64,000 bases of DNA from Bacteroidia bacterium (GTDB lineage: Bacteria > Bacteroidota > Bacteroidia > UKL13-3). The stretch is from assembly GCA_023151275.1 (NCBI GenBank), contig JAKLJI010000016.1, positions 23,596 to 87,595 on the forward strand, in the 5' to 3' direction. Both the position numbers and the translations under genes were made by a program. The notes beneath the pieces are model-generated. The model ran no database searches. It was not told the DNA's origin and worked only from the letters and a program-made list of their open reading frames with translations. Below, one piece after another: positions 387 through 5,019 of the stretch; within the stretch, counting starts at the first letter, position 1; every line of letters starts with the position of its first letter.

Positions 387-1679
387 ATGAAAAGAGTATT
401 TTTTTTTCTTGGTTTCTTTTTCAAGTTTTATTTTTCATACAGTCAATGGGATATTTCTACCTACCCAACTAGTACCATAAGACTAGAGCAAGCAATAGAG
501 TTTCTCGGTCCGAATAATGTGGTTTGCTTTGGTAATTCATCAGGATTTTTATTTTCTTCTGATAAGGGACGAAATTTTGTTTTACGCTCGAATACCTCCT
601 TTCATCTTTCTCTTTTTCAATATTTAAACGATTCCTTATTGTTTTCAAGCGGACGTTTAGATGATTTTTCATCTGGATTATCTTATACCAAGGATACTGG
701 TATATCCTTTATTCCTTTTCCAATAATTGACCAAAAAGCAGATACCTTAAAAAATGGGCAGGTTCTATTATTTCATTTTTTTGAGAATGGAAAAGGCTTC
801 ATTCTGGACAAGGTAAACGAAACGTTGAGATTTCTCTTTACTGAGAATTTTGGAAAATCATGGAGGATTAAAGATTCCAGCTTTTTCAAGGGCACTAAGG
901 AAATCGATTTGGGTGTATTCAATAATAAAAAGTTTGCTTTTGATTCAACTGTTTACAGATTATTTAGGAAAGGAAATTCAACCTGGTTGGTAAAGGTTAC
1001 AAATTTTGGTGATAGTGTTCAAATAATAGATTTTGATACCTTTTCGAATCGCATAACTTGTGCTGCTTTTAAGGATGAAAAGAATGGCATTTTCCTCGCT
1101 TCAAATAGGAAAATTTACCAAACAATAGACGGTGCATTAACATTCCAAAATTTACCAGATCTGCCTACAACTTCTTTACTTTATATTGATTATGCCAAAG
1201 AGACACAGAATAGGGAGGGATTTTATATGGCAGGAGTCGCTGGGAAATTAGAAGGATCTTATTACACAAAAGATGATGGAATTAATTGGGCCTCAGTTGG
1301 AGATGTTTTTGATTATTCTACATTGCGATTTTATAATTCCGAGTTTGGGATATCAGGCTCAGGCCGACAGGGTGAAATTATTCGCTATTTCACAGGCTTA
1401 CCATTTAATTCCATTGATAAGAAAAAGCCGGGAAGTCTAGATTTAGCTATTTTCCCCAATCCAACTGCTACCCATTTCCGTATTCAAGGTGCAGATATGT
1501 TTTCCAATGTTTTTGTCTCTATTTTCAATCTGCAGGGCAAGCTTTTGTATTCGGGAGAGCACTCCTTCCAAACAGATTGGGTGGTACCGGTGAATACCTT
1601 GGGTTCGGGAGTTTATGTTGTTTCGCTTAAAGCCAACCATTCTACGTACCCGGTATTCAGACGTTTGGTAATTGAATAA
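387..1679 (+). CDS. T9SS type A sorting domain-containing secreted protein (paralogue 1)
   Basis: Signal peptide; BNR/sialidase-like 'SSDKGRNF', 'TKDDGINW' motifs; C-terminal 'LAIFPNPTATHFRI...GVYVVSLKA...RRLVIE' T9SS CTD. Confidence 0.85.
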   Translation: MKRVFFFLGFFFKFYFSYSQWDISTYPTSTIRLEQAIEFLGPNNVVCFGNSSGFLFSSDKGRNFVLRSNTSFHLSLFQYLNDSLLFSSGRLDDFSSGLSYTKDTGISFIPFPIIDQKADTLKNGQVLLFHFFENGKGFILDKVNETLRFLFTENFGKSWRIKDSSFFKGTKEIDLGVFNNKKFAFDSTVYRLFRKGNSTWLVKVTNFGDSVQIIDFDTFSNRITCAAFKDEKNGIFLASNRKIYQTIDGALTFQNLPDLPTTSLLYIDYAKETQNREGFYMAGVAGKLEGSYYTKDDGINWASVGDVFDYSTLRFYNSEFGISGSGRQGEIIRYFTGLPFNSIDKKKPGSLDLAIFPNPTATHFRIQGADMFSNVFVSIFNLQGKLLYSGEHSFQTDWVVPVNTLGSGVYVVSLKANHSTYPVFRRLVIE

Positions 1680-1894: not shown

Positions 1895-3193
1895 ATGAAA
1901 TTTATAAAAGCAGTAACATTTATTGTTACATTTTTTCCGGGTTACCTAATGGCTCAATGGGATATTTCTAATTACCCTTCAGATGTTCATTACTTCAATC
2001 AGGCAATTGAATTTCTGGATAGTAATTCGGTCGTAGTAAACGATATAAATGGAGTTTATATCTCAAAAGATAGAGGAAAGAATTTTTTTAAGCACTCTAA
2101 CAGAATATTTTCTGGCTCAATTCTTCAATTTTTGTCCGACACTCTTCTAGTGAATAGTGCTTCAACAGATGCAAGATTAAGCGGGTTGAGCTTTTCCAAA
2201 GATACTGGCCGTACTTTTATTGATTTTCCGCTACTAAGCAGCAATGGGGATACCTTTCCTGATGGAGAGGTGTTTTTATATAATTTTTTTTCCAATGGCC
2301 GGGCATTTGTATTTGACAAGTATCAGAATAGGTACCGCTTATTTAGGTCAATAAATCATGGTTCTAGTTGGGAAGAGCTTGATACTGGCAGAATTGTTGG
2401 GCCAAGATTATTGGGAAGCTTAGGTTGGAACCATCCAGTTAATAAATTTGATTCAACGGTTCTTAGATTAGATAGATCAGGTAAGTTTCTAATGAAAGCT
2501 ACCTCCTTTGGAGATTCAATTGTAATAATTCCACTTTCACAACTTGCACCAAATTCGGCACAACCAATTTTTCATGTGGCTTTCAAATCAGAACAGGAGG
2601 GATTGGCAATTGAAACTGGAACAGGTAATGTTTACCGCACTTTGGATGGCGGTTTTTCCTATCAGGAATTAACTGCCCCTGTGGTAAGACTGTTCAGGAT
2701 TGATTTTGTAAAGGATTACTCAGTATCTAAAGGCTTTTATATTGCTGGCGCAGGTAGTGATTTCAATGGAAGTTTTGCTTCCTTTGATAATGGGTCTTCT
2801 TGGACTTCCATTGGCGATGTGTTTAACTATTTAAGCTTGCGATTTCATAGTGTAAAATTTGGAATTTCATCCTCTGCGAATAACGGGGAGCGAATTCGCT
2901 ATTTCACAGGCCTACCATTTAATTCTATTGATAATAAACAGCAGGGAAGTCTAGATTTAGCTATTTTCCCCAATCCAACTGCAACCCATTTCCGTATTCA
3001 AGGTGCGGAAATGTTTTCCACTGTTTTTGTTTCTATTTTCAACCTGCAGGGCAAGCTTTTGTATTCCGGAGAGCACTCCTTCCAAACAGATTGGGTGGTA
3101 CCTGTGAATACCTTGGGTTCGGGAGTTTATGTTGTTTCGCTTAAAGCCAACCATTCTACGTACCCGATATTCAGACGTTTGGTAATTGAGTAA
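1895..3193 (+). CDS. T9SS type A sorting domain-containing secreted protein (paralogue 2)
   Basis: Same architecture as 387..1679; near-identical C-terminus, diverged body. Confidence 0.85.
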   Translation: MKFIKAVTFIVTFFPGYLMAQWDISNYPSDVHYFNQAIEFLDSNSVVVNDINGVYISKDRGKNFFKHSNRIFSGSILQFLSDTLLVNSASTDARLSGLSFSKDTGRTFIDFPLLSSNGDTFPDGEVFLYNFFSNGRAFVFDKYQNRYRLFRSINHGSSWEELDTGRIVGPRLLGSLGWNHPVNKFDSTVLRLDRSGKFLMKATSFGDSIVIIPLSQLAPNSAQPIFHVAFKSEQEGLAIETGTGNVYRTLDGGFSYQELTAPVVRLFRIDFVKDYSVSKGFYIAGAGSDFNGSFASFDNGSSWTSIGDVFNYLSLRFHSVKFGISSSANNGERIRYFTGLPFNSIDNKQQGSLDLAIFPNPTATHFRIQGAEMFSTVFVSIFNLQGKLLYSGEHSFQTDWVVPVNTLGSGVYVVSLKANHSTYPIFRRLVIE

Positions 3194-3419: not shown

Positions 3420-4184
3420 ATGAATTTATCCTTCAATACGAAATTGGCGGAAGGCTACTCAAGTAATTCACAAATTGCAAGAATACTTACAGAGGATTGG
3501 GTGCAAAGCAATTCCTATTGTCCGGGTTGCGGTGATTTGCCCTTGGGGAGATTTAAAAACAATAGACCCGTTGCAGACTTTTACTGCAATAACTGTTCTG
3601 AAGAGTTTGAGCTGAAAAGTAAGTCTGGAAACCTTTCTAAAACCATTTCGGATGGCGCCTATTCTTCCATGATTGAACGAATTAATTCAGAAAACAATCC
3701 GAACTTCTTCTTCCTCTCCTACAATAGGGATTGGAGTGTTCAAGATTTTTTAATTATTCCCAAGCAATTTTTTACCTCAGAAATTATTATCAAACGTCCA
3801 CCACTTTCGCAAACTGCCAAACGTGCAGGCTGGATAGGGTGCAATATAGATATTTCCAAAGTAGCAGATTTTGGCAAAGTTTTTTTAGTTAAAAGGTCAA
3901 AAATTATTGACCCTGAAATGGTCAATCAGGCTTTCAAAAAAACACTTTTTTTGAGGGGCAAATCAACCGAATCAAAAGGATGGATGATTGACGTTATGAA
4001 ATGTTTGGATGAGATAAAATCCACCACTTTCAGCTTGAATGAAATCTATCAATTTGAAGCCCAATTGCAATTGAAATATCCAAATAATAATTTCATCAAA
4101 GATAAAATAAGACAGCAATTACAGATGCTTAGGGATAAGGGATTAATTGAGTTCGTTGGTCGTGGTATTTATCGAAAAATTTAG
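3420..4184 (+). CDS. dpnI: DpnI-type methyl-directed type II restriction endonuclease (Gm6ATC-cleaving family)
   Basis: 'NSQIARILTEDWV..SYCPGCG..PL..F.NNRPVADFYCNNCSEEFELKSK.G', 'RAGWIGCNID' and C-terminal winged-helix 'KDKIRQQLQMLRDKGLIEFVGRGIYRKI' closely match recalled DpnI sequence. Confidence 0.93.
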   Translation: MNLSFNTKLAEGYSSNSQIARILTEDWVQSNSYCPGCGDLPLGRFKNNRPVADFYCNNCSEEFELKSKSGNLSKTISDGAYSSMIERINSENNPNFFFLSYNRDWSVQDFLIIPKQFFTSEIIIKRPPLSQTAKRAGWIGCNIDISKVADFGKVFLVKRSKIIDPEMVNQAFKKTLFLRGKSTESKGWMIDVMKCLDEIKSTTFSLNEIYQFEAQLQLKYPNNNFIKDKIRQQLQMLRDKGLIEFVGRGIYRKI

Positions 4185-4185
4185 C

Positions 4186-4389
4186 ATGAAAAAATACATC
4201 ATAATCACACCGGAAGGAGGGACAACTGCACCCAAACCGGATTACGAATTGCATAATTTTCAAGTCCTGGGCTTTGTTGAGAATGTGAACAACGAGACTG
4301 AGGCAATTACAAAATTTTTGAAAGAAAATGATTGGATTTTTGATGCTGAATTCAATGTGGCAGAATTTATCCTTCATGAATTACTTTAG
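4186..4389 (+). CDS. Small conserved-looking protein (67 aa) directly downstream of the DpnI homologue
   Basis: ATG 4186, 1 bp after the dpnI stop; MKKYIIITPEGGTTAPKPDYELHNFQVLGFVENVNNETEAITKFLKENDWIFD...; ORF track start (4147) lies inside dpnI. Confidence 0.7.
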   Translation: MKKYIIITPEGGTTAPKPDYELHNFQVLGFVENVNNETEAITKFLKENDWIFDAEFNVAEFILHELL

Positions 4390-4860
4390 TGGAATAAACT
4401 TTCCTTCAATACCGCAATTTCTTAGTGCCTCAACATTTTGTTCTCCGTAAGCTATAAAAACACTTGGTGAACCAGGAGTTCCTACTTGCTTTCCTTCCAA
4501 ATTGAAAAACTTAATTCTTCCCTTTACAAAGAGCAAAGCATCTGCATCATTCCAAACATGGCTGAAAAACGTTTTGGTTTCTGTGCGTGCAAAAATTAAT
4601 GCGATGCCGTTACCGTGTTTTTTTAACTTCTCCAACCACTGGTCCATTCCTTTCCCGTAAGGTGGATTCATGTAAACCCTTCCGAACCATTCTTTTTCCA
4701 ACCCATTTTCGTTCAGTGTATAATTGGCTTTCGCGTGCGTAAAAGGTGGATTTACGGGAGAACAGGGGTCTAAGTCAAAATCACCCAACAATTTTACCAA
4801 ATTTGGCGGCGTTAACCATTCAACAGTTGTGTTTTCTGATTTGTCAAAAGTAACATCCAT
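4381..4860 (-). CDS. Phage-type DNA N-6-adenine methyltransferase (Dam family, PF05869-like)
   Basis: 'EWLTPPNLVKLLGDFDLDPCSP', catalytic 'NPPYGKG', 'FARTETKTFF' motifs. Confidence 0.88.
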   Translation of the reverse strand: MDVTFDKSENTTVEWLTPPNLVKLLGDFDLDPCSPVNPPFTHAKANYTLNENGLEKEWFGRVYMNPPYGKGMDQWLEKLKKHGNGIALIFARTETKTFFSHVWNDADALLFVKGRIKFFNLEGKQVGTPGSPSVFIAYGEQNVEALRNCGIEGKFIPLK

Positions 4861-5019
4861 TCTTCTTGTCTTTTGGCAAATATTAGATCAAATTCTGAAT
4901 TCTGAAAAATTACATGTGGATCATAATCAAATAGTTATGCACATTTTATGGCTGTTTAATTCCTTTGTTTTTGTCGTTTTGTTTGTAATTGTCTAATAGA
5001 ATTAACAATTATTAGAAAG

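Follow-up and report, generated by a model that had tools for sequence, protein, structure and literature searches.

A conserved Bacteroidota module of a DpnI-type endonuclease, a small acidic protein and a convergent phage Dam-type methyltransferase

A DpnI-type endonuclease gene, a small acidic ORF (ORF2) and a convergent phage Dam-type adenine methyltransferase (MTase) gene form a conserved, selected and linked module in Bacteroidota, with intact active sites, an exchanged nuclease, a pair of GATC sites in the MTase promoter and an acidic ORF2. DpnI cuts GATC solely when its adenine is methylated. A sequence-only reading of the window, the whole stretch of 64,000 nucleotides that was analysed, had described the nuclease and the MTase as a paradoxical pair, and the pair is real: it is conserved across four Bacteroidota class-type groups, with selection on all three genes. 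The best explanation overall, which is offered tentatively, is a silent GATC MTase whose release would make the DNA of the cell a target of the resident nuclease. The three ORFs and the 9-bp overlap of ORF2 with the MTase gene (4381-4389) lie where that reading had placed them, and the features of the locus are as follows.

3420..4184, + strand: DpnI-type endonuclease, PD-(D/E)XK plus winged helix, 254 aa (PF06044 and PF17726, PDB 4esj)
4186..4389, + strand: ORF2, 67-aa acidic protein (homologues in the same position in 37 of 38 loci of the MTase clade)
4381..4860, - strand: PF05869 (phage Dam type) adenine methyltransferase, 159 aa, convergent (profile matches, NPPY)
4876..4930, - strand: putative promoter of the MTase, in which a TAATATTTG box resembling the Bacteroidota -7 element follows closely on the 3' side of a GATC (pattern match)
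4886..4889, no strand: GATC site, 29 bp upstream of the MTase start (promoter alignment)
4919..4922, no strand: GATC site, 62 bp upstream of the MTase start (promoter alignment)

The genome that carries the window is 3.9 Mb in 76 contigs. The trio is flanked by two T9SS-type paralogous genes and by the groES-groEL operon. On the groEL side (window 5334 onward) synteny is retained in one same-genus and one same-family genome, while left of groEL it is gone in the same-genus and same-family genomes compared, so that the trio lies in a variable region. The same-family genome G1047 has a related trio on a different contig. The adjoining T9SS-type paralogues (window 387-1679 and 1895-3193) have nearly identical C-terminal ends, and a 3' flanking repeat is common to both.

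The window nuclease matches its family profiles over the whole protein (PF06044, 3e-78; PF17726, 2e-34) and aligns with DpnI (PDB 4esj, 9e-104) over residues 1-254 without a gap. The known functional residues of R.DpnI (N48, D53, E64, K66, D78, R126, L129, R135, W138, G140, K229 and R231) all occur in it, among them D53, E64 and K66, which we take to be the catalytic triad; the ORF is full-length and DpnI-like, as had been proposed. The catalytic and Gm6ATC-reading columns are invariant across 31 trio DpnIs, with the single exception of an R126G. The residues by which R.DpnI reads GATC and its two methyl groups have been described (PMC4117772), and an altered DpnI specificity was rejected because all reading residues are retained. 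FcyTI of Flavobacterium cyanobacteriorum, which is the DpnI of locus L005 and is about 76% identical to the window DpnI, cuts fully methylated Gm6ATC and does not cut unmethylated oligonucleotides (PMC11037411). The residues, together with this nearest tested relative, suggest that the window nuclease would need methylation, whereas the nuclease of a classical type II restriction-modification (R-M) system attacks unmodified sites that its MTase would otherwise protect. Judged from these relatives, methyl-dependence, and with it the nuclease side of the paradox, appears firm. The DpnIs of the trio set have a mean pI of 9.1.

The window METHYLTRANSFERASE is a member of PF05869/phrog_111 with DPCSP and NPPYG. 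Its PF05869 score is 43.8 bits against a gathering cut-off of 28.1, and it also matches phrog_111 (5e-31) and the PADLOC orphan MTase profile (8e-14); these matches and the NPPY motif bear out its placement in the Dam family. For the TIGR01712 equivalog it scores 32.4 bits, below the curated cut-off of 97.05. NPPY and D29/D31-P32 are invariant in all 35 trio MTases, and a dead MTase was rejected because the motifs are invariant and dN/dS is 0.13. The AF2 model of the MTase has a pLDDT of 89, and its PDB matches are weak. GATC specificity of the window MTase is plausible and rather probable, because the enzyme belongs to the same family as M.Phi93DAM, a 140-aa lactococcal phage enzyme that makes Gm6ATC (PMC4190342), is 37% identical to it over 119 columns and has the motif blocks in common with it. 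The paired promoter GATC sites and an exchangeable partner that retains the Gm6ATC reader also suggest this specificity, indirectly, and at the family level it rests on a single distant tested relative. Family and motifs are thus common to the trio MTase and the phage Dam MTases, but the trio clade adjoins nucleases, and its closest phage relatives are about 55% identical among named phages and about 63% in viral contigs. A scan of the viral contigs with a single MTase sequence gave no match; a search with the MTase alignment gave hundreds of relatives. In a tree with few outgroups and long branches, the trio MTases group as a clade of their own, apart from the phage sequences and the other rows used. 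A recent prophage origin of the module was rejected, since the trio MTases are a single clade and ORF2 has no relative in the viral contigs.

Profile searches with ORF2 gave no significant family match. The protein is strongly acidic, with a pI of about 4.2 (4.05-4.91 over the set), and its alignment has 13 invariant residues. The AF2 model (pLDDT 90) has a beta-beta-alpha-beta order, with the last strand after the helix, and no significant match in the PDB. Comparison with DpnD/PcfM (PF14207) gave no Pfam match and an hhalign probability of 2.2%, and the identification of ORF2 as DpnD was rejected for want of profile support; the likeness lies in size, place, acidity and strand/helix order alone. 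The genetics of ORF2 and the MTase is one-sided: ORF2 is present in 35 of 35 loci with an intact MTase, so that an intact MTase is never found without it, whereas at least five loci (L035/L178, L041, L072, L121 and L183) have ORF2 but lack an intact MTase. The MTase of locus L112, which has neither nuclease nor ORF2, has lost its own ATG and the second GATC. This one-sidedness and the decay in L112 are consistent with, rather than proof of, ORF2 as an inhibitor of the MTase, and our guess, from charge and genetics, is that it may be one. The same two features hint at an abortive or toxin-antitoxin-like system, in which ORF2 would be the neutraliser of a conditional self-killing.

Conservation of the trio was followed through close relatives of the window MTase. 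Such a close MTase is convergent to the nuclease, with ORF2 between them, in 22 of 80 DpnI loci from named genomes. In 396 Bacteroidota genomes drawn evenly over the phylum, DpnI occurs in 8 and the close MTase (E below 1e-70) in 4, and all four close MTases adjoin a DpnI, one of which is a pseudogene. When the window genome is left out, all three remaining close MTases coincide with DpnI, which is carried by 7 of the other 395 genomes; the hypergeometric probability is about 3e-6, uncorrected for kinship. Within the genus Flavobacterium (the genus of G218) the close MTase is found in 18 of 350 genomes, in one of them truncated, and ORF2 accompanies 17 of the 18. Wider sampling gives 38 distinct loci of the close-MTase clade, with a convergent ORF2 in 37 and an intact MTase in 35. 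The trio spans genomes of Flavobacteriia, Sphingobacteriia, Chitinophagia and Cytophagia type, including Flavobacterium, Polaribacter, Pedobacter and Chitinophaga-like genomes, with Flavobacterium dankookense DSM 25687 and Pedobacter glucosidilyticus DSM 23534 among the cultured carriers, and among the genomes searched an MTase of this clade is seen solely in this nuclease setting. Median pairwise dN/dS is 0.13 for the MTase, 0.17 for DpnI and 0.16 for ORF2, which indicates purifying selection on all three genes. The divergence of the MTase correlates with that of ORF2 at r = 0.71 and with that of DpnI at 0.34, the tighter correlation being due in part to the close overlap of the two genes. 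The co-occurrence check that had been suggested for the three genes thus excludes chance adjacency, since the trio is conserved in 37 loci and all three genes are under selection.

The upstream nuclease is the exchangeable member of the trio. Thirty-two loci have DpnI (two of them as a pseudogene), 3 have a PLD-wH protein and 2 an HTH-REase ('N3'). The MTase tree implies at least 5 changes of nuclease type, while ORF2 and the MTase stay. The PLD-wH partners retain the DpnI winged helix, which is the Gm6ATC-reader domain, and Dam-dependent toxicity in E. coli is reported for the PLD-wH fusion class (PMC11037411). In L103 (G340) and L124/L038 the DpnI is a pseudogene while ORF2 and the MTase are intact, and the intact MTase beside a pseudogene (L103, L124) may therefore have a role of its own. 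The HTH-REase partner of L107 and L126 may be an ordinary REase. Relatives of N3 also lie codirectional with a Phi93DAM-like MTase (L089:1381-2752, L090:641-2001 and L092:1507-2654), an arrangement that would be another paradoxical pair unless it is simply an ordinary R-M system for GATC. Other N3 relatives, on Halobacterium, Caulobacter and Listeria plasmids, have no annotated neighbouring MTase, and one on a Streptomyces plasmid has a methyltransferase-domain gene about 2 kb away.

The MTase has a characteristic promoter region. In 24 loci, which were selected for having the GATC pair, two GATC sites lie 31-33 bp apart upstream of the MTase, the nearer one directly before the TAATATTTG box, which we take to resemble the Bacteroidota -7 element. 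The upstream regions of all 38 MTases hold 62 GATC sites against 8.5 expected and a maximum of 16 in 200 resamplings. Per 120 bp, there are 1.63 GATC sites upstream of the trio MTases; the figure is 0.38 for the MTase relatives of phages, of which 80 were used, and 0.06 for the region upstream of dpnI. The coding cassette is itself GATC-poor (O/E 0.20). In about one third of the loci the promoter GATC is absent or otherwise placed: L022, L126 and L127 have two GATC sites 12 bp apart, and other promoters have no GATC at the usual places but a palindrome-like CACACTTATTGTGTG. This CACACTTATTGTGTG occurs upstream of the MTase in L019, L026, L028, L045, L049, L104, L106 and L118, where the GATC pair may be present or absent. 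The columns beside GATC are as conserved as GATC itself, the whole block being conserved, and because of this and because the 24 loci were chosen for the pair, GATC is to be regarded as part of a conserved promoter and not as an isolated signal; as the loci are related, none of these counts is independent. With hardly any GATC upstream of dpnI, the data give no support to a silencing of this gene through methylation of its promoter. Mean GATC O/E in Flavobacterium segments is 0.42 with the trio and 0.63 without it, and 0.28 in the window; GATC avoidance as proof of self-cutting was dropped, because other DpnI genomes are equally low and the segments are not independent. GATC is scarce around DpnI genes in many lineages (O/E often 0.1-0.5, flanks of L002-L081), although no selection against unmethylated GATC is to be expected from a methyl-dependent enzyme.

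Remnants of a DpnII-type GATC restriction operon, with genes for a D12 GATC-type MTase and for a DpnA-like one, surround about half of the trios and many cassettes with DpnI and DpnD; the D12 gene is cut near its end or down to its first residues. This location repeats in Bacteroidota the dam-replacing pattern of Neisseria (PMC516771, PMC4269198). The window locus has no D12 or DpnA remnant, and no D12 Dam was found in the window genome. DpnI-DpnD cassettes (L002-L008, L016, L020, L024, L054, L066 and others) are preceded by a gene for a D12 GATC-type MTase, in which a shared leader sequence has taken the place of the usual C-terminal end, and are followed by a DpnA-like MTase. At several loci (L022, L038, L045 and L112) genes for RAYT-like (REP-associated tyrosine) transposases stand no more than about 2 kb away and are a possible vehicle for trios.

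Cells in which both enzymes are intact could not tolerate a GATC MTase with unrestrained activity. The dedicated promoter, the constant acidic companion and the exchange among candidate methyl-reading nucleases point to a conditional mark-maker with a resident cutter, and among the options of the sequence-only reading (another specificity, a silent or conditional MTase, a regulated or abortive system) the promoter and ORF2 data favour conditional expression. The trio would then be one functional, horizontally moving module, in which DpnI would be present and active on Gm6ATC, host GATC would normally be unmethylated, and the PF05869 enzyme would be a GATC adenine MTase that is silent in growing cells. 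Silencing could be brought about by the dedicated promoter with its paired GATC, by ORF2 as an inhibitor made from the nuclease operon, or by both. If this control were removed, as might happen when host expression is shut down by a phage, the released MTase would mark GATC in all DNA of the cell, the resident nuclease would cut it, and infection and cell would end. That the trio is immunity of this kind, with infection releasing a GATC MTase silenced by ORF2 and promoter and the resident nuclease then cutting all DNA, is by itself rather unlikely; its promoter would be methylation-sensing, and the DpnI-type enzyme would thereby attack phages without methylation.

It is somewhat unlikely that the MTase makes no DpnI substrate in double-stranded DNA, acting instead on another, longer or asymmetric site or on single-stranded or transient DNA, so that the two enzymes coexist peacefully and complement each other in defence or regulation. 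Purifying selection acts on both genes, although a cell with active DpnI would not survive an active GATC MTase; MTases linked to McrBC have been argued to be non-conflicting (PMC2614495), and MTase neighbours of winged-helix (wH) nucleases were mostly non-conflicting or frameshifted (PMC11037411). The MTase is also far under the TIGR01712 cut-off (32 against 97 bits), and its relative in phage 8P adjoins an SSB gene. However, such a specificity leaves unexplained the paired promoter GATC, the Gm6ATC reader common to the exchanged partners and the restriction of the MTase clade to this setting. A two-state or anti-addiction arrangement we regard as unlikely. One state, or the phase of establishment, would combine an active MTase and methylated GATC with an inactive nuclease, and the MTase would be switched off once DpnI is expressed; it might, for example, shield the cell from a displaced GATC restriction enzyme, with the promoter GATC pair sensing methylation. 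The wrecked DpnII-type operons, with D12 dam and/or DpnA-like remnants in about half of the trio loci and likewise in many DpnI-DpnD loci, speak for it, as do the suppression of R-M host killing by a solitary MTase (cited in PMC2614495) and the methylation-controlled promoters that resolve the conflict in PcaRCI/PcaRCII (PMC8989522). The region upstream of dpnI is almost free of GATC, however, and the PcaRC way of silencing the nuclease by promoter methylation is therefore unavailable, and the window locus itself lacks the D12 or DpnA remnant. Neutral hitch-hiking, by which three genes without joint function are co-inherited through overlap and joint movement, would suit the mobility of the cassettes, with synteny left of groEL gone in two relatives and RAYT-type transposases near several trios, but is very improbable in view of a dN/dS of 0.13-0.17 for all three genes, of at least 5 exchanges of the nuclease while ORF2 and the MTase stay, and of the L112 MTase, which lost its start codon and second GATC where ORF2 and the nuclease are missing.

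Each known system resembles part of the trio. The dpnC-dpnD cassette of Streptococcus pneumoniae, which encodes DpnI, and drg of Neisseria share with the trio the nuclease family, every reading residue, a small acidic ORF immediately behind the nuclease gene and a GATC dam locus entered or replaced, but the ORF2 of the trio is not recognisably DpnD, and the trio has a convergent PF05869 MTase. The PLD-wH partners fit the architecture described for FcyTI and other wH-fusion Gm6ATC-dependent endonucleases, but the survey of these enzymes describes adjacent MTases as frameshifted or non-conflicting (PMC11037411), whereas the trio has an intact, conserved PF05869 partner and ORF2. McrBC kills the host upon genome methylation, and mcrBC is often linked to MTase genes (PMC2614495); as in the trio, a methyl-dependent nuclease can kill the cell once an MTase acts, but with McrBC the lethal MTase comes from outside, the linked one being considered harmless, whereas the linked MTase of the trio may make the lethal mark. 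PcaRCI/PcaRCII likewise combine a co-resident MTase and a nuclease that attacks its mark with control at the promoter; there the nuclease promoter is silenced by methylation, whereas in the trio GATC lies in the MTase promoter and is nearly absent at dpnI. No description of the trio was found in the literature searched, outside which most subscription journals lie.

The known kind is methyl-dependent restriction linked to an MTase, to which the trio adds an intact convergent PF05869 MTase and ORF2. Modification-dependent nucleases are thought to need a host free of their mark, and the trio breaks this rule of thumb, since nucleases of up to three unrelated kinds are paired, under selection, with an intact Dam-type MTase. 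This raises the question of how a cell tolerates a mark-maker and a mark-cutter together, and whether the conflict is used deliberately. If the released MTase does mark the DNA that the resident nuclease then cuts, DpnI-type enzymes would also defend against unmethylated phages.
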